Source: Flavobacteriia bacterium 40-80
GTDB taxonomy: Bacteria; Bacteroidota; Bacteroidia; Flavobacteriales_D; Crocinitomicaceae
Direction of reading: 5' to 3'
DNA length: 64,000 nucleotides
Assembly (NCBI GenBank): GCA_001899145.1
Contig: MKVF01000030.1
Span: 62,001 to 126,000, forward strand
Shown here: positions 22,001-63,277 of the stretch, piece after piece
Layout: every line of letters begins with the position of its first letter
Numbering within the stretch: position 1 is the stretch's first letter
The notes under the pieces: generated by a model
Seen by the model: only the letters and a program-made list of their open reading frames with translations
The model's database searches: none
Told to the model about the DNA's origin: nothing
Made by a program: the position numbers and the translations under genes

Positions 22001-23332
22001 ACAAATGGAGCGGGTACGACTATCACAACTGCCTCTTCACCGGTTGTTACTGTCGGAACGGTAACAACTGCTACCTGTGGTAACAGCAACGGTGGCATTA
22101 ATATCTCAATTTCCGGCGGAACAGCACCTTATAGTTACTCATGGTCAGATGGCTCGGTAGCACAGAATTTAACGGGTGTTCCTGCAGGGACTTATACGGT
22201 AACGGTCACAGACGATAACGGCTGTACTGCGACAAACGGTACGGGCACAACTGTTCCTGACGTAAGCGGAGGCGGAGCGCCGAATATTACGGCACAGCCT
22301 CAGAATGCCGATATGTGTGCGAGCGGAAGCACTTTCGTTCAGGTTACGGCATCCGGAGCAACAGCTTATCAGTGGGAAATCTCCACAGATGGCGGAACAA
22401 CATGGGCGAATGTGACAAATAATACAAATTATACCGGAGCTACAACAAACCAGCTGACAATTTCCGGATTAGGAACGTCTGGCTCAGGTGTGCTTTACAG
22501 ATGCCAGGTAACAGGTCCTTGCGGAAATACGGCAACTAACAGTGCGGTATTAACGATCAGTGATATTGCGTTGATCACTTCTCAGCCTTCAAGCGAGGTT
22601 GTTTGTGAAGCGGTAACTCATACATTCAGTGTTCAGGCGGACTTAGCTGTATCTTACAGCTGGCAGATCAGCCTTGACGGAAGTACATGGTATGATTTGA
22701 ATAACAGTACTACTTATTCAGGAGTAAATACAGCGGCTTTGACAGTTGCGAATGCGCAGATGAACCTTAATAATACGAAATACCGCTGTTCAATTGCCGG
22801 AGCATGTGGAAGTTCTGTTTATACAAACTCAGCGGTGCTGACAGTGAACAAACGCCCGGAAGTTTATTTTGGCATTCCTCAGATAGCGTGTATTTATGAT
22901 TCCCCTTATTCTATCAATGAGGTGACTCCTTCAGGAGGCACATTCTCCGGACCTGGAATTTCCAATAACCTGTTTAATCCTGTAGCTGCAGGAATGGGCA
23001 ACCATACTATTACTTATACGGTAACGGAGAACGGGTGTTCCAGCTCAGCTTCTTCTATAATTGAAGTCAGTCAATGTCTTGGAATGACAGATCTGGTGAA
23101 AAATGAATTGTCCATTTTCCCTAATCCAACTTCTTCAATTGTTTATCTGAAAGGAACTGTTGAGAATTATGAAACAGCTGTTTTAATCGATAACCAGGGA
23201 AGAATGATTTCAAGCTGGGATTTGAAAACAACTGCTCAGTTTGATCTGTCTGATTTTGTAGATGGCTACTATTTTATCCGGGTTGTCGGAAAAGAGAATA
23301 CAGTAGTTACAAAGATTCAATTAGTGAAATAA
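19025..23332 (+). CDS. large secreted adhesin: Gly-rich domain, seven SprB repeats, Ig-like domains, T9SS sorting domain
   Basis: The product has 1435 residues. The N-terminus has two hydrophobic stretches; the second (about 26-43, ending GWNGTAQ) looks like the real signal-peptide core. A glycine-rich domain (WTVPAGVTSITIECWGGGG) spans about 50-285. Ig/CHU-like beta domains run to about 540. Seven near-identical 77-residue SprB repeats follow (about 542-1077; GTAPYSYSWSDGS, GTYTVTVTDDNGC). Ig-like modules fill 1085-1350. The C-terminal 80 residues are a type A sorting domain (LSIFPNPTSSIVYLK ... VTKIQLVK). SprB-type proteins are surface adhesins used in Flavobacterium gliding; that role is inferred here. 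The last 1050 bp are nearly identical to the end of the M43 protease gene at 59511. Confidence 0.93.
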   Translation: MKNFVHLLSVFLIFIYTKLQYKKITSLFCVVIILLIGWNGTAQTTVPFSATGTTNWTVPAGVTSITIECWGGGGAGGGVPSNSGTARTGRGGGGGAYAVKTLAVTPNQTVTVIVGTGGTGGTGNGPAGGDSYAQYASSTVVLAKGGTGGNTATGNNNTGSVAGGSSSDCIGDDAKSGGNGGSGGYGGGGGGGGAGNNVVGNNGTGGISSCGNTGTGGTGGSGNPNNGKGGDGGKCVQNNENYANAGGNAATYGGGGGGARKGSGSSSSAKGGNGAQGYVIITYTVSASATITTSSISGSPFCAGTIVSVPFTISGAFNSGNVFTAQLSDASGNFASPVNIGTLSSTAAGAISATIPAGTASGTGYRIRVISSDPAINGTDNGVNLTINALPSAPTAASPQNFCGSATIADLAPSGAGISWYSSPSGGTPLAGSATLATGTYYVSQTTSGCESSSTSVAVTVTAKPATPTITSTPASCSAAETSTISNYNAAYTYTFTPAGPTAGAGGVISNMVTGTNYNVTASSGSCPSDASAAFSNADQLSAPSITIGTVTNATCGNSNGGINISISGGTAPYSYSWSDGSVAQNLTGVPAGTYTVTVTDDNGCTATNGAGTTITTASSPVVTVGTVTTATCGNSNGGINISISGGTAPYSYSWSDGSVAQNLTGVPAGTYTVTVTDDNGCTATNGAGTTITNASSPVVTVGTVTTATCGNSNGGINISISGGTAPYSYSWSDGSVAQNLTGVPAGTYTVTVTDDNGCTATNGAGTTITNASSPVVTVGTVTTATCGNSNGGINISISGGTAPYSYSWSDGSVAQNLTGVPTGTYTVTVTDDNGCTATNGAGTTITNASSPVVTVGTVTTATCGNSNGGINISVSGGTAPYSYSWSDGSVAQNLTGVPAGTYTVTVTDDNGCTATNGPGTTITNATSPVVTVGTVTNATCGNSNGGVDISVSGGTAPYSYSWSDGSASQNLTGVPAGTYTVTVTDDNGCTATNGAGTTITTASSPVVTVGTVTTATCGNSNGGINISISGGTAPYSYSWSDGSVAQNLTGVPAGTYTVTVTDDNGCTATNGTGTTVPDVSGGGAPNITAQPQNADMCASGSTFVQVTASGATAYQWEISTDGGTTWANVTNNTNYTGATTNQLTISGLGTSGSGVLYRCQVTGPCGNTATNSAVLTISDIALITSQPSSEVVCEAVTHTFSVQADLAVSYSWQISLDGSTWYDLNNSTTYSGVNTAALTVANAQMNLNNTKYRCSIAGACGSSVYTNSAVLTVNKRPEVYFGIPQIACIYDSPYSINEVTPSGGTFSGPGISNNLFNPVAAGMGNHTITYTVTENGCSSSASSIIEVSQCLGMTDLVKNELSIFPNPTSSIVYLKGTVENYETAVLIDNQGRMISSWDLKTTAQFDLSDFVDGYYFIRVVGKENTVVTKIQLVK
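20650..22256 (+). repeat. seven tandem 231-bp SprB repeats
   Basis: The landmark TGTGG(T/C)AACAGCAACGG recurs at 20690, 20921, 21152, 21383, 21614, 21845 and 22076, exactly 231 bp apart. Units 1-5 and 7 differ at few positions; unit 6 is more divergent (GGVDISVSGG, SDGSASQ). The near-identity suggests recent expansion or ongoing conversion. Confidence 0.95.
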
Positions 23333-23355
23333 ATCTGATATTTTATAAAACGGAA
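22282..23355 (+). repeat. copy A of 1.07-kb direct repeat (pair with 62204-63277)
   Basis: From GAATATTAC to the bases just past the stop, this aligns without gaps to 62204-63277. The coding part is exactly the same length (1051 bp). Over the last 250 coding bases I count five differences, all silent. Homology runs about 20 bp past the stop (TATTTTATAAAAC) and ends before the terminators, which differ. Confidence 0.95.
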
Positions 23356-23385
23356 GGGACTGTCTCTAAAGAATAGTCCCTTTTT
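23356..23385 (+). terminator. intrinsic terminator after adhesin gene
   Basis: GGGACT/AGTCCC stem, 13-base loop, then five T. Confidence 0.75.
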
Positions 23386-23501
23386 CATTGCATTGATTTT
23401 GGGAGCGGCTATTTTTCAGTTTTTAGAAAAATAGTGAAAGACATGCTGCCAGGTTGCTCTCCCGAATGGAAATAGCGTGTTCTTGATTTAACAAAAAAAT
23501 A

Positions 23502-23526
23502 AATTGTAATATTTTTTATTACAATT
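23502..23526. promoter_or_regulatory. perfect dyad AATTGTAATA-N5-TATTACAATT, candidate Rrf2 operator
   Basis: Two 10-bp arms flank five T. The core is TGTAA-N9-TTACA (23505-23523), and the same core with the same spacing recurs at 23979-23997 before the next gene. The site covers the -33 region of the promoter at 23536, where a repressor could block polymerase. Confidence 0.7.
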
Positions 23527-23535
23527 AAAAGATTT

Positions 23536-23543
23536 TAATTTTG
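23536..23543 (+). promoter_or_regulatory. -7 element TAATTTTG for rrf2-type gene
   Basis: Fits TAnnTTTG and ends 7 bp before the ATG, so the transcript would start at or next to the start codon (nearly leaderless) if this element is used. Confidence 0.45.
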
Positions 23544-23550
23544 TTGCATT

Positions 23551-23961
23551 ATGAATAATACGCGATTTGCTACAGCAGTACATATTCTAACCATTCTTGC
23601 GGCCAATAGAGAAGAATGGCAGAGTTCAGATTTTATTGCAGGAAGCATTAATGTAAATCCTGTAATTGTCAGAAAGGAGCTTGGAGTTCTTCAGAGTGCG
23701 GGTTTTGTTGAAACCCGGAAGGGAAAGGAAGGAGGTGCTAAGCTGAACAAGGATGCCGGGTTAATTACGATAGATGAAATTTACCTTGCAGTAAAAAATT
23801 CCGAAGTACTGGGGAAAAAGAATCTGAAAACTAACCCGAAATGTCCGATCGGAAAACAAATCAATGGAAAACTGGAAGTATTGTTCAATGAAACAGATCA
23901 TTTGGTGATTGAATTTTTAAAGGATAAATCTTTAGCGGATTTTGTGAGACAATTTTTCTGA
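23551..23961 (+). CDS. Rrf2-family transcriptional regulator
   Basis: The product has 136 residues. The winged helix spans about 5-65 (FATAVHILTILA, SSDFIAGSINVNPVIVRKEL, LQSAGFVETRKGKEGGAKLN). Only one Cys is present (CPIGKQ near 108), so the three-Cys [2Fe-2S] site of IscR/NsrR is missing. It resembles the cluster-free YwnA-like branch. The gene lies between two TGTAA-N9-TTACA dyads and 55 bp before an NmrA-type oxidoreductase. I infer that it represses itself and its neighbour, possibly in response to electrophile, quinone or thiol stress. Confidence 0.9.
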   Translation: MNNTRFATAVHILTILAANREEWQSSDFIAGSINVNPVIVRKELGVLQSAGFVETRKGKEGGAKLNKDAGLITIDEIYLAVKNSEVLGKKNLKTNPKCPIGKQINGKLEVLFNETDHLVIEFLKDKSLADFVRQFF

Positions 23962-23978
23962 TTTTTTTTGAATATAAA

Positions 23979-23997
23979 TGTAACAAAAATAATTACA
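23979..23997. promoter_or_regulatory. second TGTAA-N9-TTACA dyad, candidate Rrf2 operator
   Basis: The arms TGTAA (23979-23983) and TTACA (23993-23997) have the same 9-bp spacing and the same ATT right flank as the dyad at 23502-23526. It sits in the 55-bp gap before the oxidoreductase gene. Confidence 0.65.
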
Positions 23998-24016
23998 ATT
24001 AAAAATAAAAACAGCT

Positions 24017-24871
24017 ATGAAAATAGGTATTACAGGAGCAACAGGACAATTAGGGAATTTGGTCGTTGCAAAATTAAAAGAGAAAACAGCTGCAGAAAAT
24101 TTAGTGGCATTGGTACGAACACCGGAAAAAGCAGGGAATTTAGGTATCGAAGTTCGTATGTTTGACTATAATCAGCCTTCAGGATTGTCGGAAGCATTGA
24201 AAGGTATTGATATTCTGTTTTTGATTTCCGGTAGTGAAATCGGAAAGCGTGCAGAGCAGCATCAAAATGTTATAAATGCGGCAAAAGAAGCCGGAATAAA
24301 ACGAATTGTGTACACCAGCTTGTTACATGCAGATCGTTCAACGCTGGTACTTGCACCGGAACATCTGGCAACAGAAACGGCTATTAAAGCATCCGGACTA
24401 ACCTATACTATTTTAAGAAATGGCTGGTACACCGAGAATTATACAGCTTCTATTCCTGCTGCGCTTCAGGCAGGAACATTTACAGGGAGCGCAGGTGACG
24501 GAAAGATAGCTTCTGCTTCCCGTTCAGATTTTGCAGATGCTGCTGTAGCTGTCTTGACAGGACCAGGCCATGATGGAAAAATATATGAGCTGGCAGGAGA
24601 CGAATATTATACATTGACAGACTTTGCTGCCGTGTTATCCGAAATTACCGGGAAAAATATTCCATATCAGAATTTGCAGGAAGCGGATTATACAAGTGCA
24701 TTGATACAGGCAGGTTTACCTGAACCATTAGCAGCTGCATTTGCAAGTTTTGATGCGTCTGCTGCAAAGGGCGATCTATATGATTCGGGTAAACAGCTGT
24801 CACAATTAACAGGTCATTCGACCATGACGCTGGCAGATGCAATTAAAAAGGCGTTAGCCGGCTATAAATGA
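24017..24871 (+). CDS. NmrA/QorB-type NAD(P)-binding oxidoreductase
   Basis: The product has 284 residues. Atypical short-chain dehydrogenase fold: nucleotide motif GITGATGQLGNLV at 3-15, FLISGSE near 73-79, and an NmrA-like lobe (RIVYTSLLHAD, LRNGWYTENY, YELAGDEYYTLTDFAAVL). No Tyr-x-x-x-Lys catalytic pair is apparent, as in NmrA proteins. QorB-type members reduce quinones with NADPH; others only sense the cofactor. It is paired with the Rrf2 regulator upstream. Substrate is unknown. Confidence 0.88.
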   Translation: MKIGITGATGQLGNLVVAKLKEKTAAENLVALVRTPEKAGNLGIEVRMFDYNQPSGLSEALKGIDILFLISGSEIGKRAEQHQNVINAAKEAGIKRIVYTSLLHADRSTLVLAPEHLATETAIKASGLTYTILRNGWYTENYTASIPAALQAGTFTGSAGDGKIASASRSDFADAAVAVLTGPGHDGKIYELAGDEYYTLTDFAAVLSEITGKNIPYQNLQEADYTSALIQAGLPEPLAAAFASFDASAAKGDLYDSGKQLSQLTGHSTMTLADAIKKALAGYK

Positions 24872-24879
24872 TTATTTCA

Positions 24880-24912
24880 GGCTCCATTTATAATTAATGG
24901 AGCTTTCTTTTT
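24880..24912 (+). terminator. intrinsic terminator after oxidoreductase gene
   Basis: GCTCCATT/AATGGAGC 8-bp stem, 7-base loop, then a T-rich tract (TTTCTTTTT). Confidence 0.75.
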
Positions 24913-24969
24913 ATCTTAAAAGAAAGCAGAAATTAAATGTTACTCATTTAAAAATTCTATTTTTAAACC

Positions 24970-25389
24970 ATGAATTGGATTACAACAGATATTGACAAGG
25001 TAAATCAGCTGAACCGTAATACGCTGATGGAAACATTAGATATAAAATGCGTTGCTGTTCATGACAATATAGTAGAGATGACCATGCCTGTAAGTCCTAA
25101 GAACCATCAGCCGATGGGACTGCTTCATGGTGGAGCAAGCGTGGCACTGATTGAAAGTGTAGGATCACTGGGTTCAGCGTTGCTGATCGATACCCGGAAA
25201 GAAGCCTGTGTCGGACTGGAAGTGAACGCAAACCATCTGAATGCAGTAAAAACGGGAATGGTCCGTGCTATTGCCGAGATCATACACTGTGGAAGAAGAA
25301 CACATGTGTGGAAAGTGGATGTCATCGATGAGGAAACGAAAAAGATGGTATGTACGGGGCGTTTAACGGTAATGATTATACAACGCTGA
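24970..25389 (+). CDS. hotdog-fold thioesterase (PaaI/MenI-like)
   Basis: The product has 139 residues. Signature NHQPMGLLHGGASVALIESVGSLGS (about 44-68), with the Gly-Gly turn and Glu of 4-HBT-II thioesterases. The stop overlaps the menF start (TGATG), so translation is probably coupled. In that setting the likely substrate is 1,4-dihydroxy-2-naphthoyl-CoA in menaquinone synthesis, but this rests on the neighbour, not on a diagnostic residue. Confidence 0.88.
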   Translation: MNWITTDIDKVNQLNRNTLMETLDIKCVAVHDNIVEMTMPVSPKNHQPMGLLHGGASVALIESVGSLGSALLIDTRKEACVGLEVNANHLNAVKTGMVRAIAEIIHCGRRTHVWKVDVIDEETKKMVCTGRLTVMIIQR

Positions 25390-26354
25390 TGGATCTGATT
25401 AAAATTCGCTATCCGGAAAGCCAGGCAGTGACTTATGCCGGAAAACTTATAAATTTCAGTGATAAACCTTCTCATTCCGGTTTTTTAGTAACAGATTTCA
25501 CGACTGAAAAGCTGTATCGCTTTGCTGTTACGGAACAATATGACAAACAAAAGGAATATCCTTTGCATTTCTCGGAAGAGGAACCGGTTGTTTATTCCAG
25601 GGAAGAATATATTTACCGGGCATCGGGATTTCTGGATGACCTGAAAAGAAAAAAATTCCTGAAAGCGATTTTTTCCAGGATTAAGAAAGTTGACTTTGAC
25701 AGCTCTCAGGTGCACCAGTTGTTTGAAAAGCTGTGTGAAGAATACCCTGATGCGTTCGTGTATATGCTGAGTTCTGAAAAATTGGGAACCTGGGTGGGCG
25801 CTTCTCCGGAATACGTGCTGGAGAAAATGGGAAAGGAATTATATACCATGTCTTTAGCCGGTACAAAAAAAGATGAATCCGTTGCCTGGACGGAAAAAGA
25901 AATACTGGAGCAGGAGTATGTAACGAAGTTTATCGAAAATTCCTTAAAGAACATAAAGGTGAATAATTTGAAGACCATCGGACCGTATGATTTTCATGCC
26001 GGGCCGGTGATTCATCTTAAAACGGATATCTATGCGGAAACAGACCTGAGCTCGCTGGAGCTCGCATTGTTTCTTCATCCTACGCCGGCGGTGAGCGGCT
26101 TACCGAAAATGGAAAGTCTTGATCTGATCGCTGAGCATGAAACACATTCGAGGAGCATATATGCAGGAATTATTGGTTTTTATGCGGATCAGAACAGTAG
26201 CTTGTATGTCAACCTTCGCTGTGCCCAGATTCGTAAAAATGCAGCCTATTTGTATTTGGGCGGAGGATTTACGAAAGATTCGGATGTGGAAAAAGAGTGG
26301 GAGGAAACGGAAAATAAATCCCGTACACTGATGAATATTATGGACAAATTATAA
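25389..26354 (+). CDS. menF: isochorismate synthase (MenF family)
   Basis: MenF converts chorismate to isochorismate, the first menaquinone step. I choose ATG 25389 (MDLIKIRYPESQAV), overlapping the thioesterase stop as TGATG; this gives 321 residues. Chorismate-binding motifs: LYTMSLAGTKK, LHPTPAVSGLPKMESLDLI, HSRSIYAGIIGFY, and the closing DSDVEKEWEETENKSRTL. The N-terminal part is short relative to E. coli MenF, as in other Bacteroidota. Anthranilate or aminodeoxychorismate synthase is less likely, given the PTPAV..P motif and the partner gene. Confidence 0.88.
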   Translation: MDLIKIRYPESQAVTYAGKLINFSDKPSHSGFLVTDFTTEKLYRFAVTEQYDKQKEYPLHFSEEEPVVYSREEYIYRASGFLDDLKRKKFLKAIFSRIKKVDFDSSQVHQLFEKLCEEYPDAFVYMLSSEKLGTWVGASPEYVLEKMGKELYTMSLAGTKKDESVAWTEKEILEQEYVTKFIENSLKNIKVNNLKTIGPYDFHAGPVIHLKTDIYAETDLSSLELALFLHPTPAVSGLPKMESLDLIAEHETHSRSIYAGIIGFYADQNSSLYVNLRCAQIRKNAAYLYLGGGFTKDSDVEKEWEETENKSRTLMNIMDKL

Positions 26355-26360
26355 ATAAGA

Positions 26361-26387
26361 AAAACCTGTCGGTCAACAGGTTTTTTT
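26361..26387. terminator. bidirectional terminator between menF and THX gene
   Basis: AAAACCTGT/ACAGGTTTT hairpin with T runs on both strands, placed between convergent genes. Confidence 0.8.
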
Positions 26388-26389
26388 CT

Positions 26390-26647
26390 TTATGCTTCAT
26401 CCTTCTTTGCAGAACTTTTTGTTGTTGTCTTTTTAGCTTTCGGAGCAGCTGCTTTTTCTTTCGGGGCTTTTTCTGCAGCTGGTTTTTTCGCAGCGGCTTT
26501 TTTAGGTTCCTCCGCCTTTACCGGTTTTTCCGCAGTGGCATTAAGAGATTTCTTTGCTGCCCGGATAGTAGATTTACTTGGGCGGGTATTTCCGTGCGAT
26601 CCCATCACCCGTTTTCCTTTTGTTGTCTTACGATCTCCTTTTCCCAT
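26390..26647 (-). CDS. 30S ribosomal protein THX with histone-H1-like tail
   Basis: The first 28 residues (MGKGDRKTTKGKRVMGSHGN, then TRPS) match THX/bS31, a small basic protein that stabilises the 30S head. The protein has 85 residues, much longer than the 26-residue Thermus protein. The extra 55 residues are almost only Lys, Ala, Pro, Glu and Thr (KKAAAKKPAAEKAPKEKAAA), like a histone H1 C-terminal tail. A strong promoter (26681-26710) suggests high expression. Confidence 0.88.
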   Translation of the reverse strand: MGKGDRKTTKGKRVMGSHGNTRPSKSTIRAAKKSLNATAEKPVKAEEPKKAAAKKPAAEKAPKEKAAAPKAKKTTTKSSAKKDEA

Positions 26648-26680
26648 AATTGTATTGTTTTGTTGTATTTCAGATTCTCA

Positions 26681-26710
26681 CAAATATAACATTCCTAATC
26701 AATTTAACAA
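26681..26710 (-). promoter_or_regulatory. promoter for THX gene (TTG-N19-TATATTTG)
   Basis: On the minus strand TTG (26710-26708) and TATATTTG (26688-26681) are exactly 19 bp apart. Confidence 0.8.
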
Positions 26711-26751
26711 GTATTTTTATGAGAAGTTAAGGTTAATACTCCGAAAAGGAT

Positions 26752-26759
26752 TAATTTTG
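26752..26759 (+). promoter_or_regulatory. -7 element TAATTTTG for marR-type gene
   Basis: Fits TAnnTTTG and lies 21 bp before the ATG. No TTG at -33. Confidence 0.45.
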
Positions 26760-26766
26760 TAACTAT

Positions 26767-26776
26767 TACCATGGTA
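26767..26776. promoter_or_regulatory. 10-bp palindrome TACCATGGTA before marR-type gene
   Basis: A perfect 10-bp palindrome lies between the -7 element and the start codon, where a MarR operator would repress. It is short, so chance is possible. Confidence 0.35.
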
Positions 26777-26780
26777 TATT

Positions 26781-27227
26781 ATGAGGACAATAGATGATGA
26801 AATAAAATCCAGATTTAAATCGGAGCAGCACAGAGCCCTGATAAACCTTAAATTTACAGCTAACTGGCTGGCAAATTTGCAGAATAATTATATGAACGAA
26901 TATGATCTGTCAATGGCACAGTTCAATATTCTCAGGATTTTAAGAGGGGCGAAGGAATTCATAAGTGTGAATACTGTAAAAGAAAGAATGATAGAAAAAT
27001 CTCCCAATACAACCCGCCTGATGGATAAATTGCTGGAGAAAGAACTGATCGAACGGATAAGGTGTGAGGAGGACAGAAGGGTAGTATATGTGAAAATTTC
27101 GCAAGGAGGCCTGAATCTGCTTGCAAAAATTGATGAAACTTTTGAAGACACTTTTTTTTCGGCTAAATGTCTTAGTAATGACGAAGCGAAACAACTGAAT
27201 TATTTACTGGATAAGCTGAGGAGTTAA
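26781..27227 (+). CDS. MarR-family transcriptional regulator
   Basis: The product has 148 residues. Winged-helix core: YDLSMAQFNILRILRG (helices 2-3), SVNTVKERMIEKSPNTTRLMDKLLEKELIERI (recognition helix), and wing CEEDRRVVYVKIS (the D-R-R wing motif). MarR dimers usually repress nearby genes and are released by small ligands. The outer-membrane protein gene starts 1 bp after its stop, so the two form an operon and that gene is the likely target. The ligand is unknown. Confidence 0.92.
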   Translation: MRTIDDEIKSRFKSEQHRALINLKFTANWLANLQNNYMNEYDLSMAQFNILRILRGAKEFISVNTVKERMIEKSPNTTRLMDKLLEKELIERIRCEEDRRVVYVKISQGGLNLLAKIDETFEDTFFSAKCLSNDEAKQLNYLLDKLRS

Positions 27228-27228
27228 A

Positions 27229-29649
27229 ATGAAGTACCTGGTTGTTTTTGGTGTAGTTTTTTGTGTTTTATTTTCTTTTGCTCAGACAGGTACCATTAAA
27301 GGAAAAATAGTAGAGAGTACAACGAATCAGAATAAGGATTATGTAGCGGTAAAGCTATTCAAAAGCAATGATACGATCGTTCAGGGTATTATTTATACGG
27401 ACGAAAACGGTGTTTTTGTATTTGATAATTTACCTTTGGGCAATTATACTATCCAGGTGAATGAATTTGGATATGAAGATTTTTTGTCTGATATTTTGCT
27501 CACAGCCGGGCAGCCGATTGTAAATCAGGTTTTAAAGCTGGTGAAAGCAAAAGCGGATGAACTGGAGGAAGTAGTGATCCGCCAGGAGAAAACGCTCATC
27601 GAAAATAATCTGGAAAAACGAACGTATAATGTATCACAGGATATTATGTCAAAAGGTGCGTCCGCGTCAGATCTGCTGAATAATATTCCTTCAATTGATG
27701 TGGATCAGGACGGAAATATCACTTTGAGAGGAGAATCCAATATCATCATTCTTATTGACGGTAAGCCAAGTACTATAAGCGGAGGAAACGCGCGTACCAT
27801 TTTCGAAAGCATCCCGGCTGAATCGATCGACAGGATAGAGATAGTGAACAACCCATCCGCGAAATATGATGCTGATGGAACGGCAGGCTTTATCAATATT
27901 GTGATGAAGAAAAACAGAGTGCGTGGAATAAACGGGAATTTTTCACTTTCTGCAGGAACCGCGAATGTTTACAATGCGACAGGAGCGCTCAGCTATATGA
28001 CAGATAAGATGAATGCCTTCGCTTCTTACGGCTTCCGCTATTACGAAGGAGTAAGAGGAAATTATGTGTATCAGAAACGTGAAAATACGGAATCTGTAAT
28101 GGAGCTGTTCCAGAAGCGCGTCGGTTCCGATCTGATGGAAAACCACACGTTTCGTTTAGGTTCTGATTTTTATCTGCCCAAATCCAATACGCTGGGTTTC
28201 TATGTAACAGGTATCGTTGGCGATCGGGAACGGGACGGAGATATGGTTAACAGGCAGTTTCAGAACGATTCCATTAAAAGAGACTGGGTAAGAAGAACGG
28301 CAGAACCTTCCAGTAATTACGGATTTGACTTTAACCTTAATTATCTGAAGCGGTTTAAGGAGAATACGGGGTCGGTCAGTGCAGAAATCACTCATTCCAT
28401 GTCTTCTTTAAAAACTGAAGGCAATTACCTGCAGCAGGAAGCGCTTTTTGATTATTATCCCTCGGTGAATGAGGATTTTTATCAGCGTTTATTATCAGAT
28501 GAAAAGAACAGGACCACTACCTTTCAGATAGATGCTGTTAAAAAGCTTCGGGAAAATATGACTCTTGAATTTGGAGAAAAGTCGATCATCCGCCAGTTTG
28601 ACCTGGCTACTAATTCTACCCGGAAGTTTTCTTCTGATCCGGATTATTATCAGGATACTATTGCGAATTACGATTATGTCTATAACGAGCAGGTTCATAC
28701 ACTTTACGGGAACTGGAAGTATGTTATCAATAAATTTTCATATATGGCAGGAGTACGCCTGGAGTATTTTGAGCAGCGCCCCAACCTGAAATCCCAGAAT
28801 TTATCCTATCTGAACAAATATTACAATTTATTTCCTTCCTTGGCTTTGTCCTATAAGCTGAATGACAAATCGGATCTCACATTACAGTTCAGCAGAAGAA
28901 TCAACCGGCCGTCAAGTGAACAGCTGAATCCGTTTGTCAGCTATACGGACCCGTTAAATCTGCAAACAGGAAACCCATATCTGAAACCGGAATTCATTAA
29001 TGCTGTGGAATTTTCATATAATTATAACACGAAGAATTTCAGCGTCATGCCAAGCTTGTATTTCCGGCAGGCATCCAATGCAATTCAGCGGGCCAGATGG
29101 TACACAGGGGAAAATATTACGACTTCCACTTATGCTAATGTGGACGGAAGCCGGACATTTGGTTATGAATTAATAGTGATTTACAAGCCATTTAAATGGT
29201 TCAAAAATATGTTATCCTCTAATGGAAGCTATATTCGGTTTATTGAGAATAACGACAATATCAACTGGAACAGAAAAGGATGGAACTGGTCAGTTAAATA
29301 TTCCGGTACGTTTGATTTCTGGAAAAATTCGGCCAGTATTCAGCTGAATGCCCGCTATTTTGCGCCGATTATCATGGCACAGGGAAAGGGGAAAGGACGA
29401 GCAGTTGTTGATCTGGCATTTAACAAGACACTGAAGAATAAAAACTGGTCGTTAGGAGCAAGACTTTCAGATGTGTTCAATACACAGGAATTTACCGTTA
29501 TCATCGATCAGCCCGGAATTTATCAGACTTCTCGTTTTAAGCAGAATACACGGAGATTGTACGTAACAGTAACTTACAAATTCGGAAAATACGAAGTATC
29601 GAAGAAATCGCAGTTAAACAATGCCTCCGGAGGCGAAGGAGATAATTAA
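27229..29649 (+). CDS. TonB-dependent-receptor-like outer membrane beta-barrel protein
   Basis: The product has 806 residues. Signal peptide 1-18 (VVFCVLFSFAQ). A carboxypeptidase-regulatory-like beta domain spans about 20-105 (GTIKGKIVESTT ... GNYTIQVNEFGYEDF). The plug domain spans about 115-220 (SASDLLNNIPSIDVDQDG, LIDGKPS, IESIP-type helix, NPSAKYDADGTAGFINI). The rest is a beta-barrel of the OMP_b-brl_3 kind, rich in aromatic turn residues and ending in VTYKFGKYEVSKK. A role in uptake or export of an unknown ligand is inferred; MarR control suggests a toxic or signalling compound. No SusD partner is adjacent. Confidence 0.9.
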   Translation: MKYLVVFGVVFCVLFSFAQTGTIKGKIVESTTNQNKDYVAVKLFKSNDTIVQGIIYTDENGVFVFDNLPLGNYTIQVNEFGYEDFLSDILLTAGQPIVNQVLKLVKAKADELEEVVIRQEKTLIENNLEKRTYNVSQDIMSKGASASDLLNNIPSIDVDQDGNITLRGESNIIILIDGKPSTISGGNARTIFESIPAESIDRIEIVNNPSAKYDADGTAGFINIVMKKNRVRGINGNFSLSAGTANVYNATGALSYMTDKMNAFASYGFRYYEGVRGNYVYQKRENTESVMELFQKRVGSDLMENHTFRLGSDFYLPKSNTLGFYVTGIVGDRERDGDMVNRQFQNDSIKRDWVRRTAEPSSNYGFDFNLNYLKRFKENTGSVSAEITHSMSSLKTEGNYLQQEALFDYYPSVNEDFYQRLLSDEKNRTTTFQIDAVKKLRENMTLEFGEKSIIRQFDLATNSTRKFSSDPDYYQDTIANYDYVYNEQVHTLYGNWKYVINKFSYMAGVRLEYFEQRPNLKSQNLSYLNKYYNLFPSLALSYKLNDKSDLTLQFSRRINRPSSEQLNPFVSYTDPLNLQTGNPYLKPEFINAVEFSYNYNTKNFSVMPSLYFRQASNAIQRARWYTGENITTSTYANVDGSRTFGYELIVIYKPFKWFKNMLSSNGSYIRFIENNDNINWNRKGWNWSVKYSGTFDFWKNSASIQLNARYFAPIIMAQGKGKGRAVVDLAFNKTLKNKNWSLGARLSDVFNTQEFTVIIDQPGIYQTSRFKQNTRRLYVTVTYKFGKYEVSKKSQLNNASGGEGDN

Positions 29650-31105: not shown

Positions 31106-31107
31106 AT

Positions 31108-31132
31108 AAAAAAGGCCGCACTGGGCGGCCTC
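31108..31132 (-). terminator. intrinsic terminator after valS
   Basis: Minus-strand GGCCGC/GCGGCC stem (plus a flanking pair) followed by a T run, 6 bp past the valS stop. Confidence 0.8.
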
Positions 31133-54775: not shown

Positions 54776-54781
54776 TTTTTA

Positions 54782-56387: not shown

Positions 56388-56421
56388 AGTAAAATTCATC
56401 TTTATGATTTGTAAAAGTACG

Positions 56422-56429
56422 TATTTTTG
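56422..56429 (+). promoter_or_regulatory. -7 element TATTTTTG for cinA
   Basis: Exact TAnnTTTG match, 20 bp before the ATG; it supports the start at 56449 rather than the long open frame to 56005. Confidence 0.45.
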
Positions 56430-56448
56430 TCAAATCAAAAATAGAGCC

Positions 56449-57699
56449 ATGAAAATTCAGATTGTCGCAATAGGGGATGAGGTTTTGAACGGACAGGTGA
56501 TAAATACCAATGCTTCATGGATGGCGGAACGGTTATCCGCACAGGGATATTATGTACATAAAATGGCCGTTATTCCGGATAGTTATGAAGAGATATATGA
56601 TTTTATCTCGGAATCATTTGAGAGATATGAGCTGTCTATTGTTACCGGAGGCTTAGGCCCGACAAAAGATGATATAACGAAGAAAGTGTTTGCGGATTAT
56701 TTCCGGTGCGGATTTAAAACAGATACTGAAACAAAAAAAAGGATTGAAGGACTTTTTCAAAGGCGGGGATTGCCGATGCTGGAAGCAAATACGTTGCAGG
56801 CCTCAGTTCCTGAAGCGGCAGAAGTATTGCCGAATACGAATGGAACAGCACCGGGACTGATATTTAAGAAAAACGGGAACATGATCATTGCTTTGCCCGG
56901 TGTACCTTTTGAAATGAAAGGTATCCTGGAAGAATATGGCTTTTCCCGGATTTTTGATGCTTTTAAAAAGGAAAATTATTATGCAAGGTCCGTGCTGGTA
57001 ACAGGGATTGGAGAATCGTTCCTGGCGGAAAAAATTGCTGATTGGGAGAACAGGCTGAGAGCGGAAGGATTGGAATTGTCTTATCTTCCTTCTGTGGCAC
57101 AGATAAAACTGAGAATTACGGCAAAGCATAATCCAAAAGCATATATGTCATTAATTGACCAGTATATCGAAGAGCTGAAAATACTGATTCCGGAGAATTT
57201 TTTTGGTCTTGAAGGCCAGACACTGAGCCAGGTTGTCGGAGGATTATTAAAATCCCGGGGCTTTACAATTGCTTCAATGGAAAGCTGTACCGGAGGAGGA
57301 ATTATTAATGAGCTGATAAAAACTTCCGGTTCGGCTACATATGTAAAAGGAGGTTTGATTACTTATACAAATGAAATAAAAATGGAAGTGGGCAGGATAT
57401 CTCCTGCTACGATAGAGAAATATACGGAACTAAGCGAGCAATGTGCGCGGGAAATGGCTGAAAATGCTGCAACTATTTTTCAGGCGGATGTAGGAGTAAG
57501 CATCACTGGCCTGCTGGAAGCGGAGAAAGGAAAAGATACATTTGCTTATATTTCAGTTTTTTGTAAAGGAAAAACGTACGTGATACATAAAAAATTCGGA
57601 GATAATCGTGAACGTAATATACAAATGAGTATCTTTGCTGCGCTGAATTTTCTCAGGAATCTGATTAAAGATGAAAATCCTGAAAAAATTGTAAAATAA
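56449..57699 (+). CDS. cinA: CinA-family protein (MoCF-like domain plus altered amidase domain)
   Basis: The product has 416 residues from ATG 56449 ([20 protein letters not shown]). Residues 1-170: MoCF-like COG1058 domain ([40 protein letters not shown]). Residues about 260-416: COG1546 domain with the nucleophile segment [11 protein letters not shown] and [17 protein letters not shown]. In active NMN deamidases a Gly-Pro-Gly-Gly loop follows SITG; here it reads [13 protein letters not shown], so deamidase activity is doubtful. The open frame to 56005 is antisense to DUF4197 and is not part of the gene. Confidence 0.9.
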
Positions 57700-57701
57700 G
57701 T

Positions 57702-57732
57702 TTGTGTTTTAGGAAAATATTTATTTCCTTTG
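57702..57732 (+). promoter_or_regulatory. promoter for rpmB-rpmG operon (TTG-N20-TTCCTTTG)
   Basis: TTG at 57702-57704 and TTCCTTTG at 57725-57732 (one mismatch to TAnnTTTG). Start expected about 30 bp before rpmB. Confidence 0.5.
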
Positions 57733-57770
57733 CACCCGCTTTAACGATTATAAGATTAATAAATAATATA

Positions 57771-58007
57771 ATGTCACGAGTTTGTCAATTAACAGGTAAG
57801 TCAGTAATGGTGGGAAATAATGTTTCTCACTCAAATCGTAAAACTAAACGTAAGTTTTATCCGAACTTGGTAACTAAGAAGTTTTTCGTTCCGGAAGAAG
57901 GAAAGTTCGTAACTTTAAAAATTTCGACTTCAGCATTGAGAACAGTGAACAAAAAAGGAATTACGGCTTGTATTAAAGAAGCTAAAGAAAAAGGATTCCT
58001 TAAATAA
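57771..58007 (+). CDS. rpmB: 50S ribosomal protein L28
   Basis: The product has 78 residues from ATG 57771 ([20 protein letters not shown]). Matches L28: [39 protein letters not shown]. First of the L28-L33-DUF4295 run, a gene order typical of Bacteroidota. Confidence 0.97.
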
Positions 58008-58051
58008 TTTTGTTCCCGTTGTGAAATGGTAAAATTTTAAAAAGAATTAAA

Positions 58052-58240
58052 ATGGCTAAGAAAAGTAAAGGTAATAGAATTCAGGTGATTTTGGAGTGTA
58101 CGGAACATAAAACCACAGGTTTACCGGGTACATCAAGATATATTTCTACTAAAAACAGAAAAAATACACCTGAGAGATTAGAGTTGAAGAAGTACAACCC
58201 TATCTTGAAAAAATATACAGTACATAAAGAAATTAAATAA
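58052..58240 (+). CDS. rpmG: 50S ribosomal protein L33
   Basis: The product has 62 residues. [46 protein letters not shown] are L33 motifs. Only one Cys remains, so this is the zinc-free form. Lies 44 bp after rpmB and 10 bp before the DUF4295 gene. Confidence 0.97.
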
Positions 58241-58250
58241 TATTTGAGTT

Positions 58251-58403
58251 ATGGCTAAGAAAGTAGTAGCATCCCTTCAGAAAGGTGGAGGAAAAGAGCA
58301 CACGAAAGTGATTAAAATGTTCAAAAATGAAAAAGGAAGTGTTTCTTTCAAACAAGAAATAGTTCATAACGATAAAGTAAAAGAATGGTTTGATAAAAAC
58401 TGA
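58251..58403 (+). CDS. DUF4295 small protein
   Basis: A 50-residue protein: MAKKVVASLQKGGGKEHTKV, IKMFKNEKGSVSFKQEIVHN, DKVKEWFDKN. The family is restricted to Bacteroidota and regularly follows rpmB-rpmG; its basic, ribosomal-protein-like nature and location suggest a ribosome-associated role, which is inferred. Confidence 0.92.
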   Translation: MAKKVVASLQKGGGKEHTKVIKMFKNEKGSVSFKQEIVHNDKVKEWFDKN

Positions 58404-58426
58404 TTCTTTTCTGTAAAAGAATTTAA

Positions 58427-58453
58427 AAGCTCCGAAAAACCGGGGCTTTTTTT
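58427..58453 (+). terminator. intrinsic terminator of the rpmB operon
   Basis: AAGCTCCG/CGGGGCTT stem (one G-T), 6-base loop, run of T. Confidence 0.85.
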
Positions 58454-58465
58454 AGTTTAATATAT

Positions 58466-58473
58466 TAACTTTG
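58466..58473 (+). promoter_or_regulatory. -7 element TAACTTTG for ftsY
   Basis: Exact TAnnTTTG match 23 bp before the ATG and just after the terminator. Confidence 0.5.
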
Positions 58474-58495
58474 TTTCGTAGTAAAAGTATTTGTC

Positions 58496-59455
58496 ATGGG
58501 GTTATTTGATTTTTTTAATAAGGCCAATAAGGAATCCAAAGAGACGCTGGATAAAGGGCTGGAAAAAACCAAGGAAGGATTTTTTTCGAAGATAACCCGC
58601 TCATTGGTAGGGAAATCGAAAGTAGATGACGAATACCTGGATGAATTGGAGGAGATTCTTATTTCTTCGGATGTAGGCGTTGAAACGACATTAAAAATTA
58701 TCTCCCGGCTTGAAAAAAGAATCGAGCAGGACAAATACATCAATGCGGATGAACTGCATCAAATCCTGAAAAGTGAAATAAAGGAGCTTCTCGCAGAGAA
58801 TGACAATGCACATGTCAATTTCAAATTTACGGAAGAAGCTCCGAAGCCGTATGTGATTATGGTGGTAGGAGTAAATGGTGTGGGAAAAACCACAACTATA
58901 GGAAAGCTTTCCAACAGGTTCAAAAATAGTGGATTGAAAGTGATGCTGGGGGCTGCGGATACGTTTCGTGCTGCTGCTGTGGATCAGTTGAAGATCTGGG
59001 CTTCCAGAGTTGATGTGGATATTACCTACAAGGACATGGGGTCGGATCCTGCAGCCGTTGCTTTTTCAGCTTTGCAGGAAGCTGTAGCAAAAAATGCAGA
59101 TGTTTGTATCATTGATACCGCGGGACGTTTGCACAACAAGATAAACTTAATGAATGAGCTCAGTAAAATCAAGCGTGTGATGGATAAGGTAATCCCGGGG
59201 GCACCGCATGAAGTTTTACTGGTGTTAGATGGCTCTACCGGACAAAATGCTTTTGAGCAGGCGAAGCAATTTTCTGAGGCAACAGAAATAAACGCGCTTG
59301 CGATTACCAAATTAGACGGAACTGCAAAAGGCGGAGTGGTAATCGGAATTTCAGATCAGCTGAAGGTACCCGTAAAGTATATCGGAGTCGGAGAAGGAGT
59401 AGATGATCTCCAGTTATTTGATAAAGATACATTTATAGATTCTCTTTTTAATTAG
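58496..59455 (+). CDS. ftsY: signal recognition particle receptor FtsY
   Basis: The product has 319 residues, with almost no acidic A domain (only about 20 residues before the N domain). N domain: DDEYLDELEEILISSDVGVE. G domain: GVNGVGKTTTIGKLSNRF near 125-142, AADTFRAAAVDQLKIWA, DTAGRLHNK, TKLDGTAKGGVVIGIS, GVGEGVDDLQLFD. FtsY docks SRP-ribosome complexes at the membrane. ffh is not in the window. Confidence 0.97.
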   Translation: MGLFDFFNKANKESKETLDKGLEKTKEGFFSKITRSLVGKSKVDDEYLDELEEILISSDVGVETTLKIISRLEKRIEQDKYINADELHQILKSEIKELLAENDNAHVNFKFTEEAPKPYVIMVVGVNGVGKTTTIGKLSNRFKNSGLKVMLGAADTFRAAAVDQLKIWASRVDVDITYKDMGSDPAAVAFSALQEAVAKNADVCIIDTAGRLHNKINLMNELSKIKRVMDKVIPGAPHEVLLVLDGSTGQNAFEQAKQFSEATEINALAITKLDGTAKGGVVIGISDQLKVPVKYIGVGEGVDDLQLFDKDTFIDSLFN

Positions 59456-59510
59456 TCATTATTTTTTTATTTTTTGTTTAAAACTTTATATATTTAGGCG
59501 TCTAAAACCT

Positions 59511-62500
59511 ATGTATATGAAGAGAATTTCTATTTTCCTGGCTTTCCTATGGGCGGCATTTGTAAATGCGCAGAACCAGCTGCCCCAGCAAGGTCTTCAA
59601 ATGACAGAACATAATCATGAAAAATGCTATGCAGGCATTCTCCATCACCAAATGATGGAAAATAATCCCGATTATGTTTTGAAAATGAATCAGTTTGAAC
59701 AATACGTTCAAAGTATGTCGGATTCATTTACCCCAAAGACACAGGCAACGTATGTGATACCTGTCGTTTTCCACGTTATCCATTTGGGAGAAGCTGTCGG
59801 AACAGGAACGAATGTTTCGGATGATGCGATTAAAAGAGCCATTCGTGTAGCAAATGAACGTTACCGTAACCTGAACAATGGTGGCGGAGCCGATACGCAA
59901 ATTGAATTCGCATTGGCTGTTCAGGATCCGAGTGGCAATTGTACCAATGGGATTACAAGAACAAATTACAGCTCTAATTCAGCTTATGCTAATTACGGTG
60001 TAAAAGTCAGCGGAAATAATGGTATTTCAGATTCTCAGCTAAAAGGAATTATTTCCTGGAACAGAAATAAATATTATAACATTTATATTGTTTCTGAAAT
60101 TGATAACAATAATGGTGGAGCAGGAACTCAGGGATATGCTTATATGGCATCCAATCACGGAAATGCAACTGACGGAGCCGTTTTTATGGCTTCCAATATC
60201 CTTCAGGATTTTGATCATACGTTGATTCATGAGCTGGGACACGCTTTGAATTTGTACCACACATTTGAAGGAGACGGAACAGGAAATACATGTCCTCCTT
60301 CCAGCCCGACTCAGGGAGATATGTGTGCAGATACTCCTCCTCATAAAAGAAGCCAGTCGGACTGTAATGTTACAGGAACAAATTCATGTGACGGAGGTTC
60401 TTCAAACGCATTATTTGTTCATAATTATATGGACTATTCTTCCGTATCCTGTGTAACTCAGTTTACGGCGAATCAGGGAACAAGAATGCGTGCAGCATGC
60501 TCTGGCCCGAGAGCTTCTTTTTTTACGAGCAACAACGCGTTAGTTCCTGTTTCTGCTCCGACAGCGGCAATTATTATTCCTCAGAAGATTTATTGCTCGG
60601 GAACAGTGAACCTGTATGACAATAGCTCTTGTGTAGCTAATACTTATACGGAACATTCCGAATTTTCCGGAAATACACATAGCTGGAGTGTCACAAACGG
60701 ATCTGTGACATTGACGTCAAGTAAACAAAACCCGACCTTTAATATTACTTCAACAGGATGGTACAGTGTTACATTGACAGTGACTACCGCGCAAGGTACT
60801 AACACAATAACAGAAACAGATGCATTTTATTATGCGGGAACAAGTGTTTCTACCTGTACTCCGAATCTTGGTACGCCTGGCCCGAACGGAATAAACGCTT
60901 CTGAAGTTACATTTAATACGATCAGCTCTTTTACGAGCTCTTCTGAAACAAATACGTATGAAAATCTGGTATGTACGAAAAACACAATTGTAAATGCCGG
61001 GGATACTTATCCGATCAGCGTAAAAATCAATACTTACGGATATACAAGCTATGTAAAGGTATATATTGATTGGGAAAATAACGGAACGTATTCAGCTGCT
61101 GAAAAAGTGCTGGAAGGAAGCGTAGCAAGCTCCGGTTCCAATCAGACATCGGGTTATGTGACGGGGAACGTTGTGATACCTGCGACGGCAGTACAAAATC
61201 AGATTTTGAGAATGAGAGTGATTATGGATGCAGCGACTGCACCGACGGAAGCGAAAGCGAACTGCTCAGGAAGTCTTGTTGCCGGTGATGTAGAAGATTA
61301 CGGAGTTCTGGTTAAAGATAATTGTCCGTTGGCAAATGTATCAACCCAGCCGGTTAATACAACTATCTGCCCTAACGGTACAGGAACGATTTCTTCTTCA
61401 ATTTCAGGAGGAACTTCTTATCAATGGCAGGTTTCAACTGACAATGGTTCTACATGGTCGGATGTTACTAACAACGCGAATTATGCGGGAGCAACGACTC
61501 AATCTTTGTCTTTGACAAATGTACCGACTTCGTTCAATACGCAAAAGTACCGCTTGAAAATAACAAATTCCTGCGGGGATAAATATACAAATGTGGCTAC
61601 GTTAACAGTTTCTTCCACCATCACTTTCTCTACCCAGCCAGCAAATGAAACAGTTTGTGCAAACGGAACAATTAGCCTTACTGCAGTAGCCAGTGGCGGA
61701 ACTTATCAGTGGCAGGCTTCAACAGATGGCGGAATAACCTGGTCGAATATTTCTGATGGTGGAAATTATTCAGGGGCAGGAACCGGTACATTGACAATAG
61801 CTACAATCCCGGGCAGCTTTGATGCGAATCAATACAGATGTGTAGCAACCAGTAGCTGTACAACACAAAATTCTTCTGTTGCAACATTGACGGTAACGGC
61901 TTCTTCTGCTCAAATTACCAGTCAGCCTCAGGACCTTTCAGCCTGCCCTAATTCAGGTGCAACTTTCGGAGTTACCGGAACAGGAATTACAGGATACCAG
62001 TGGCAGGTTTCAACTGATAATGGCGCTACATGGAATAATGTGGATGATGTAGCTCCGGTTTCAGGATCAACGACAGCGACGCTGAATATTGCATCTGTTA
62101 CAACAATTATGAACAATACGAAATACAGATGTGTGTTAACGACCAGCTGCGGGAATATTAACAGTTCAGTTGCGACACTTTCCGTTACAGCAGCAGGAGT
62201 AGTGAATATTACAGCTCAGCCTCAGAATACCGGTATGTGTCCGAACGGAAGTACTTTTGTTCAGGTTACGGCATCCGGAGCAACAGCTTATCAGTGGGAA
62301 ATCTCCACAGATGGCGGAACAACATGGGCGAATGTGACAAATAATACAAACTATGCCGGAGCCACAACAAACCAGCTGACAATTTCCGGATTGGCAATGT
62401 CCGGCTCAGGTGCGCTTTACAGATGCCAGGTAGCAGGTCCTTGCGGAAATACGGCAACTAACAGTGCGGTATTAACGATCAGTGATATTGCGTTGATCAC

Positions 62501-63254
62501 TTCTCAGCCTTCAAGCGAGGTTGTCTGTGAATCAGTAACTCATACATTCAGCGTTCAGGCAGATTTAGCCGTATCTTACAGCTGGCAGATCAGCTTTGAC
62601 GGAAATACATGGTATGATTTGAATAACAGTACTACTTATTCAGGAGTGAATACAGCAGCTTTGACGGTTTCGAATGTGCAGATGAACCTTAATAATACGA
62701 AATACCGCTGTTCAATTACCGGAGCATGCGGAGGTTCTGCTTATACAAACTCAGTAGTACTTACTGTGAACAAGCGTCCGGAAATTTATTTTGGTGCTCC
62801 TCAGGTAGCGTGTATTTATGATTCCCCTTATTCTATCAGTGAGGTCACTCCTTCAGGAGGTACATTCTCCGGACCTGGGATTTCCAATAACTTGTTTAAT
62901 CCTGTAGCTGCAGGAATGGGCACTCATACCATTACCTATACGGTAACGGAGAACGGCTGTTCCAGCTCAGCTTCTTCCACCATTGAAGTGAGTCAATGTC
63001 TTGGAATGACAGATCTGGTGAAAAATGAACTGTCTATTTTCCCTAATCCAACTTCTTCAATTGTTTATCTGAAAGGAACTGTTGAGAATTATGAAACAGC
63101 TGTTTTAATCGATAATCAGGGAAGAATGATTTCAAGCTGGGATTTGAAAACAACTGCTCAGTTTGATTTGTCTGATTTTGTAGATGGCTACTATTTTATC
63201 CGGGTTGTCGGAAAAGAGAATACAGTAGTTACAAAAATTCAATTAGTGAAATAA
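59511..63254 (+). CDS. secreted M43-family zinc metalloprotease with GEVED, Ig-like repeats and T9SS sorting domain
   Basis: The product has 1247 residues; either MYM or the next Met (MKRISIFLAFLWAAFVNAQ) starts the signal peptide. Protease domain (about 80-345): zinc site HELGHALNLYH near 240-250 and Met-turn HNYMDYSS near 305, with paired Cys, as in pappalysin/M43 enzymes. PKD-like domain about 345-440. GEVED domain about 450-605 (TYENLVCTKNTIV, GDVEDYG). Ig-like modules follow to about 1160 (YQWQVSTDNGSTW repeated). The last 84 residues (LSIFPNPTSSIVYLK ... VTKIQLVK) are a type A sorting domain identical at protein level to that of the SprB-repeat adhesin. Exported by T9SS; probably degrades extracellular protein. 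Confidence 0.95.
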   Translation: MYMKRISIFLAFLWAAFVNAQNQLPQQGLQMTEHNHEKCYAGILHHQMMENNPDYVLKMNQFEQYVQSMSDSFTPKTQATYVIPVVFHVIHLGEAVGTGTNVSDDAIKRAIRVANERYRNLNNGGGADTQIEFALAVQDPSGNCTNGITRTNYSSNSAYANYGVKVSGNNGISDSQLKGIISWNRNKYYNIYIVSEIDNNNGGAGTQGYAYMASNHGNATDGAVFMASNILQDFDHTLIHELGHALNLYHTFEGDGTGNTCPPSSPTQGDMCADTPPHKRSQSDCNVTGTNSCDGGSSNALFVHNYMDYSSVSCVTQFTANQGTRMRAACSGPRASFFTSNNALVPVSAPTAAIIIPQKIYCSGTVNLYDNSSCVANTYTEHSEFSGNTHSWSVTNGSVTLTSSKQNPTFNITSTGWYSVTLTVTTAQGTNTITETDAFYYAGTSVSTCTPNLGTPGPNGINASEVTFNTISSFTSSSETNTYENLVCTKNTIVNAGDTYPISVKINTYGYTSYVKVYIDWENNGTYSAAEKVLEGSVASSGSNQTSGYVTGNVVIPATAVQNQILRMRVIMDAATAPTEAKANCSGSLVAGDVEDYGVLVKDNCPLANVSTQPVNTTICPNGTGTISSSISGGTSYQWQVSTDNGSTWSDVTNNANYAGATTQSLSLTNVPTSFNTQKYRLKITNSCGDKYTNVATLTVSSTITFSTQPANETVCANGTISLTAVASGGTYQWQASTDGGITWSNISDGGNYSGAGTGTLTIATIPGSFDANQYRCVATSSCTTQNSSVATLTVTASSAQITSQPQDLSACPNSGATFGVTGTGITGYQWQVSTDNGATWNNVDDVAPVSGSTTATLNIASVTTIMNNTKYRCVLTTSCGNINSSVATLSVTAAGVVNITAQPQNTGMCPNGSTFVQVTASGATAYQWEISTDGGTTWANVTNNTNYAGATTNQLTISGLAMSGSGALYRCQVAGPCGNTATNSAVLTISDIALITSQPSSEVVCESVTHTFSVQADLAVSYSWQISFDGNTWYDLNNSTTYSGVNTAALTVSNVQMNLNNTKYRCSITGACGGSAYTNSVVLTVNKRPEIYFGAPQVACIYDSPYSISEVTPSGGTFSGPGISNNLFNPVAAGMGTHTITYTVTENGCSSSASSTIEVSQCLGMTDLVKNELSIFPNPTSSIVYLKGTVENYETAVLIDNQGRMISSWDLKTTAQFDLSDFVDGYYFIRVVGKENTVVTKIQLVK

Positions 63255-63277
63255 GCTTGCTATTTTATAAAACAGAA
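62204..63277 (+). repeat. copy B of 1.07-kb direct repeat (pair with 22282-23355)
   Basis: Same orientation and same length as copy A, 39.9 kb away. It encodes the last 2-3 Ig-like modules, the CIYDSPYSI linker domain and the sorting domain of the M43 protease. Divergence from copy A is higher in the Ig-like part and nearly nil in the sorting domain. Confidence 0.95.

Follow-up and report, generated by a model that had tools for sequence, protein, structure and literature searches.

A stretch of 64,000 nucleotides from Flavobacteriia bacterium 40-80 (positions 62,001 to 126,000 of contig MKVF01000030.1, hereafter the window) carries two genes that share their 3' ends. One encodes an adhesin-like protein with SprB repeats and the other an M43 metalloprotease. 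The shared part, here called the cassette, is a direct repeat of 1074 bp per copy with a spacing of 39.9 kb (Table 1). It encodes two immunoglobulin (Ig)-like units, a middle domain and a type A sorting domain of the type IX secretion system (T9SS), and it includes 23 bp of 3' flank.

Table 1. Coordinates of the two genes, the cassette copies and associated features in the window (aa, amino acids; ORF, open reading frame).
Feature	Position	Strand	Basis
Cassette copy 1 (likely recipient)	22282..23355	+	93.4% to copy 2, ungapped
Cassette copy 2 (in likely donor)	62204..63277	+	Ungapped alignment to copy 1
Type A sorting domain in copy 1 (aa 1364-1431)	23114..23317	+	Profile match, C30:85114-85317
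Terminator-like hairpin at homology end	63276..63299	.	Scanner, - strand
Adhesin-like protein, 1435 aa, likely recipient	19025..23332	+	Pfam SprB 5.6e-49, Gly_rich_2 2.7e-20, Por_Secre_tail 3e-12
SprB-repeat array, seven 231-bp units	20667..22281	+	Repeat comparison
uvrB, divergent neighbour of adhesin	16638..18749	-	Neighbour ORF scan
M43 metalloprotease, 1247 aa, likely donor	59511..63254	+	Pfam Peptidase_M43 9.6e-20, GEVED 8.7e-13, Por_Secre_tail 9.2e-8
Three protease Ig-like units directly upstream of cassette	61311..62203	+	Same kind: 39-bp core repeats, spacing 285-294 bp
ftsY, upstream neighbour of protease	58496..59455	+	Order cinA-ftsY-protease kept in two relatives (L200, L201)

The two copies align without gaps at 93.39% identity (71 differences), and beyond the limits of the repeat identity falls at once to 7-20 of every 50 bases. 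The in-frame portion covers 22283-23332 and 62205-63254, and homology extends 23 bp past both stop codons. An earlier reading of the DNA from its letters (the sequence-only reading) had described the repeat, and its coordinates, gap-free alignment, direct orientation and spacing proved exact on re-alignment, as did its remark that homology ends just past the stop codons and its count of five changes in the last 250 coding bases (exactly 5 were found). Its term "near-identical" is slightly too strong for what is a real repeat, and the identical protein end that it noted is indeed identical, over 90 residues rather than 84. By eye, hairpins begin where homology ends; a hairpin scanner called the one after the protease copy on the minus strand (T-rich on the plus strand by eye) and none downstream of the adhesin. 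The same reading had suggested looking for further copies, and in the source assembly (3.52 Mb, 32 contigs, 99.7% complete) exactly two full copies were found, together with one match of 47 bases inside an upstream Ig unit of the protease. Chance resemblance is excluded, as the E value for the pair is 0. No relative emerged when named genomes were scanned with the cassette. Its middle domain is frequently found ahead of sorting domains in genomes of the family. Structure prediction for the cassette from a single sequence was poor (mean predicted local distance difference test score, pLDDT, of 44).

The label of adhesin given by the sequence-only reading holds by domain content, as does that of protease. 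The adhesin runs from a Gly-rich region (residues 51-283) through an Ig-like region and the SprB-repeat array (PF13573, 7 stretches, 5.6e-49) to the cassette, whose type A sorting domain lies at the extreme C-terminus (TIGR04183, NCBIfam, 62.1 bits vs a cut-off of 23). There is no match in the adhesin to the type B sorting domain model (TIGR04131), and when the gap up to the next gene was translated no remnant of a type B domain was seen by eye after the adhesin stop. Units 1-6 of the array are 87-97% alike, and the last unit is 79-86% alike to the others over its 229 bases preceding the cassette. The longest exact repeat within the array is 113 bases, and elsewhere in the genome this array type is not found above 76% (C2, C27).

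The protease has the order M43 domain (PF05572, 9.6e-20), GEVED domain, three further Ig-like units and cassette, and its sorting domain scores 35.2 bits with TIGR04183 (cut-off 23). Both proteins have hydrophobic N-termini by eye. The motif HELGHALNLYH at residues 240-250, which we take to hold the zinc-binding histidines of M43, is invariant in five aligned proteins at every residue except L242. For one and the same sorting domain the score is 62 bits in the adhesin (P0001, residues 1364-1431), 35 in the protease (P0002, residues 1176-1243) and 40 in a 200-residue end; this gap between identical domains is probably an effect of the composition correction of HMMER.

The sorting domain sets the adhesin apart from most SprB proteins of its own genome. 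The genome holds 89 matches to the type A family (87 above the cut-off) and 71 SprB-repeat matches, the latter belonging to the adhesin, to 15 other genes whose 3' end is in the assembly and to one fragment that lacks an end. That fragment is contig C26 (L218, 4545 bp), where a single frame of SprB-like repeats fills the whole contig and stays open on either side; by eye its repeats are of the same kind as those at the end of C6. The type B model is matched by 14 of the 15 other SprB-repeat proteins (the gene on C2 being counted through its end on C27), and the fifteenth (L211) matches neither model and resembles type B by eye. At E 0.001 the type A model is matched by five of the 16 SprB proteins, namely the adhesin and four others, two of which (L210 and L212) have much higher type B scores when taken at full length. 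The closest paralogue of the adhesin is the gene that runs off C2 and continues on C27 (72-base end overlap). It matches the adhesin at 85.5% over residues 393-530 and at 78% over 406 residues of SprB units, and its end, on C27, is of type B. One SprB unit of the adhesin is matched best by this C2, C27 gene and by the C6:210 gene, all type B.

Other observations pull against a type B origin of the adhesin. The fifth-best match to its SprB unit is a type A protein, L229, from the relative G004. Among SprB ORFs with a C-terminus in ten relatives (n=59), 49 are type B, 9 are type A and 1 is neither, and 6 of the 9 belong to G004. These were drawn from 62 distinct ORFs chosen from the best of 594 matches, and so are biased to strong ones; 60 were fetched and 59 had a C-terminus, the two unfetched and L251, which runs off its contig, being left out of the count. 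Type A SprB proteins are a minority, and they are present elsewhere too. In its Gly-rich N-terminus the adhesin is similar both to L099, which is a type A protein of its own genome (40% over 260 residues, E 1.1e-9), and to the type B gene on C2 (47% over 58 residues, E 1.1e-9); L099 also matches the SprB array (35% over 512 residues). Because both the N-terminus and the array resemble L099, the ancestral sorting class is uncertain. The adhesin gene is a mosaic whose ancestral class we infer from its relatives, and by these sequence comparisons the chances that the ancestor would have been type B appear about even.

Our explanation, which we hold to be reasonably probable, is a single copying event in the lineage of this species that placed a copy of the protease's 3' end at the 3' end of the adhesin gene, 40 kb away. 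The adhesin would thereby have gained a complete export module consisting of an Ig-like stalk and a type A T9SS sorting domain. It is predicted to be exported by the T9SS and to be collected by PorV rather than by a PorP/SprF-type shuttle, with static anchoring at the surface or release as its expected fate. A narrower claim, that this was a natural one-step switch of a SprB-family type B adhesin to type A cargo by way of a whole protease export tail, we put forward tentatively, as a possibility that falls somewhat short of probable. In the genome, PorV (NF033710) has 4 matches, one of them above the cut-off (399 bits vs 250), and PorP/SprF (PF11751) has 10, of which the only one on the same contig lies at C30:180881. 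No PorP/SprF gene was found within the window or among the nine neighbouring ORFs scanned.

The age of the copy can be gauged from the coding differences. Synonymous divergence (dS) in the cassette is 0.188 and nonsynonymous divergence (dN) 0.032 by the Nei-Gojobori method, with 41 silent and 25 replacement changes. The sequence-only reading had spoken of a recent duplication, and at a dS of 0.19 this is not a fresh copy. Between the adhesin stalk and its closest paralogue dS is 0.51-0.57 (two best Ig-region matches) and at least 1.2 in the SprB units, so the cassette, with its lower value, was copied after the stalk and its paralogue had split. The low dN/dS fits both copies having stayed in use. 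In the last 90 codons there are 6 silent codon differences and no others, compared with 31 silent and 24 others in the rest (Fisher p 0.07), and stronger conservation of this end is suggestive only.

Gene conversion, which the sequence-only reading had offered as one origin of the repeat, would mean that the two genes had older homologous ends and that the end of the adhesin was overwritten or is still being homogenised; the adhesin may then have been type A already, with no change of class. We consider this unlikely, even though related middle and sorting domains are widespread in the family and the N-terminus of the adhesin resembles a type A protein of its own genome. All 66 coding differences taken together would favour it as well: of three measures, two indicate clustering (p 0.0008 for dispersion and p 0.0019 for the four longest runs) and one does not (p 0.12 for the longest run). 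Comparing synonymous divergence along the repeat, as the sequence-only reading had proposed, revealed no clustering, however: permutation of the 37 silent codons gave p 0.30, 0.19 and 0.34. Since the silent codons alone are unclustered, we put the clustering of all differences down to uneven constraint, and the pattern gives no support to conversion. Homology also ends abruptly on both sides without older similarity beyond, and the nearest relative of the stalk is type B. Ongoing conversion was rejected as a candidate in its own right, the silent differences lacking patchiness (permutation p 0.19-0.34). From the same lack of clustering we infer that a single old copying is a better fit than continuing conversion, and one event, after which the copies diverged in the ordinary way under purifying selection, would be enough to explain the pattern.

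As to direction, the cassette most likely belonged to the protease originally and would have passed from there to the adhesin. This is argued by the three Ig units of the same kind that lie in frame just upstream of the cassette in the protease, by syntenic orthologues that end in homologous domains, and by the failure to find an adhesin orthologue. The protease is the sole match to the Ig part of the cassette among the stretches of the genome that were fetched, and the listed matches in the genome itself (4 of 9) all lie within the adhesin or the protease. Relatives found in a protease alignment scan include metagenome assemblies of Flavobacteriales and Crocinitomicaceae. In two related genomes, G034 and G061, the order cinA-ftsY-protease is conserved, with ftsY at 72%, residues 1-600 of the protease at 52-54%, and terminal Ig, middle and sorting domains that are homologous at 37-44% identity. 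The same protease gene is apparently split across two contigs in G072, and in G057 the M43 and cassette matches lie within one open frame (judged by equal length, 1416 codons).

No orthologue of the adhesin was found when its N-terminal 520 residues were compared with 200 genomes of the family, a set in which the genus is represented by one genome only; outside the genome itself the matches were mostly partial, with a best E value of 1e-34. Identity among the top ten was 41-50%, and nine of these matched the Ig-like region, which starts near residue 280. The surroundings of uvrB on the adhesin's side (up to 12 kb) were compared in 14 relatives, and the neighbourhood is kept in one, G072, where the adhesin is absent. 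In G072 (L381, C129) the thioesterase and isochorismate synthase genes come immediately after uvrB, whereas in the window the adhesin, Rrf2 and NmrA-like genes lie in between and the two are about 6 kb further away; judged from this comparison, the difference reads as an insertion or a deletion. In the other 13, uvrB alone was matched at E 1e-10, save for one weak SprB match (L387). The uvrB matches of L373, L378 and L380 (G185, G077 and G014; 3 of 15 relatives) contain 1-2 stop codons. The adhesin adjoins uvrB and its closest paralogue (C2/C27; L210 1606-4002) adjoins a uvrA-like ORF by eye, which is possibly a coincidence.

In a 35-row tree of sorting-domain ends (L037, L038 and L139, being overlapping pieces, were left out) the two cassette copies pair at 100/100. 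They are each other's closest relatives, and the proposal of the sequence-only reading that a ready-made Ig-plus-sorting-domain cassette was duplicated is supported; a grouping of each copy with its own orthologue is absent from this tree, in which there is no adhesin orthologue to compare. Two results do not favour the direction from protease to adhesin. The pair sits on a long branch (1.82) at a fork with support 48/80 and not with the protease orthologues, and the case for the direction therefore relies on the Ig array and on synteny. In GC content the cassette (42.4%) is close to the protease body (42.2%) vs 48-49% in the adhesin body, but third-position GC does not differ, so that this match says little about origin.

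The opposite course, in which the cassette originated in the adhesin, or in a third gene since lost, and was then copied into the protease, would suit the tree, where the cassette sorting domain is not grouped with those of the protease orthologues, and also the drop in similarity between the protease and its orthologues, from 52-54% over the first 600 residues to only 37-39% at the end. It nevertheless appears improbable, as the Ig array of the protease continues upstream in the same kind of unit, syntenic orthologues share the domain order of the protease, and the adhesin showed no Ig unit of this kind other than those in its cassette. Most improbable is an assembly artefact joining the SprB array to the wrong 3' end in this repeat-rich draft of 32 contigs: another SprB array is broken between C2 and C27, the SprB frame of C26 is cut at both ends and short reads could slip in the 113-base exact repeat of the adhesin array, but the cassettes differ at 71 positions, their 3' flanks differ, and a false join of the array to copy 1 is unlikely because the array type is otherwise absent above 76%, leaving no other such array available for joining, because the longest internal repeat is 113 bases and because the last SprB unit differs from the others by 14-21%.

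Between the copies lie valS, lpxA, lpxC/fabZ, lpxD, aroC and ftsY. Such genes are of the essential kind, and deletion of the segment would therefore probably be lethal. The longest exact run shared by the copies is 92 bp, and this length of identity suffices for RecA-type recombination. As the repeats are direct, crossing-over between them would either remove the segment or double it, and the earlier remark that only duplication or conversion would be tolerated is reasonable: genes of the kind that it took to be essential are present.

Several known systems resemble the adhesin and protease in part. PorV is the shuttle that collects type A domains, and PorP/SprF-like shuttles do so for type B domains (PMC12618676, PMC9143113). 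In Flavobacterium johnsoniae, SprB, otherwise a moving adhesin, is secreted when its type B domain is exchanged for a type A domain, but is then immobile or released (PMC12618676). The chimeras concerned, SprB-CTD(RemA) and SprB-CTD(AmyB), join an SprB body to a type A domain as the adhesin does; they are laboratory-made (PMC12618676), whereas the adhesin is a natural gene, known from sequence, whose sorting domain can be matched to that of a resident protease. SprB-kind adhesins with type B domains, which are held by PorP/SprF proteins (PMC9143113), share the SprB repeats, but the adhesin differs from them in having no type B domain and no PorP/SprF gene in the window. A linked porP/sprF-like gene is often, although not always, found with SprB-type adhesins.

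In Porphyromonas gingivalis, HagA, Kgp and RgpA are likewise adhesin and protease cargo of the T9SS with common repeated domains that include the sorting domain. Two variants, BE1 and BR1, have lost DNA of the hagA-kgp locus, and homologous recombination is named by the authors as the probable cause (PMC5266723, PMC9328147). The pair described here has in common with hagA/kgp a near-identical shared C-terminal region. The shared part in P. gingivalis consists mainly of cleaved-adhesin and DUF2436 domains and the hagA-kgp region is about 20 kb (PMC5266723, PMC9328147), whereas here Ig-like units are shared 40 kb apart and the nearest relatives of the adhesin are type B. Neither cleaved-adhesin nor DUF2436 has a Pfam match in the adhesin or protease at E 0.01. 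The fucoidanase Fhf1 of Formosa haliotis also carries both an SprB repeat and a type A sorting domain, but it is an enzyme with one predicted repeat, and the part of the report cited describes no donor gene (PMC7698502). In the open-licence literature in PMC (titles and abstract openings) we found no description of a natural replacement of a type B by a type A domain, nor of a natural donor and recipient in one genome where the relatives of the stalk are of the other sorting class.

Sharing of tails is not confined to this pair. Among 70 regions covering the 89 type A matches, with a criterion of at least 100 bp at no less than 75% over the sorting domain, the tail-sharing groups are this pair, a group on C1 and C32, and a tandem pair on C28 (84%, by coordinates). 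The C1/C32 group comprises L195 1-515 and 5022-5536 on C1 and L196 1-330 on the reverse strand at the end of C32, with 91.6-96.7% DNA identity; one of its genes is complete (C1:982-5538) and the other members are cut by contig ends. A large ORF on C32, which may run towards such a tail, has one 179-residue stretch (40%) in common with the C1:982-5538 gene. C-terminal sharing occurs with type B domains too. The neighbouring SprB adhesins L241 and L246 of G004 are identical over their last 100 residues, which are type B, and at 92.8% in DNA over 1148 bp; L261 and L262 also end very similarly. Elsewhere in the window, a 157-residue ORF with a type A sorting domain (7106-7579; domain at 7355-7561) lies downstream of a 2030-residue ORF (180-6272), which holds repeats of about 156 bp from about 3355.

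One practical consequence for annotation is that unrelated T9SS proteins can be linked by near-identical C-terminal ends. If a natural switch of sorting class from such a donor is borne out, the sorting tails of Bacteroidota would be 3' modules that can be transferred and that send existing adhesins to a new address; the tail shared between C1 and C32 may then be another such case. The class of the sorting signal would then be an evolvable switch between adhesins held by a shuttle and adhesins that are statically anchored or released, and the acquisition of T9SS signals could be studied as a recombination process.

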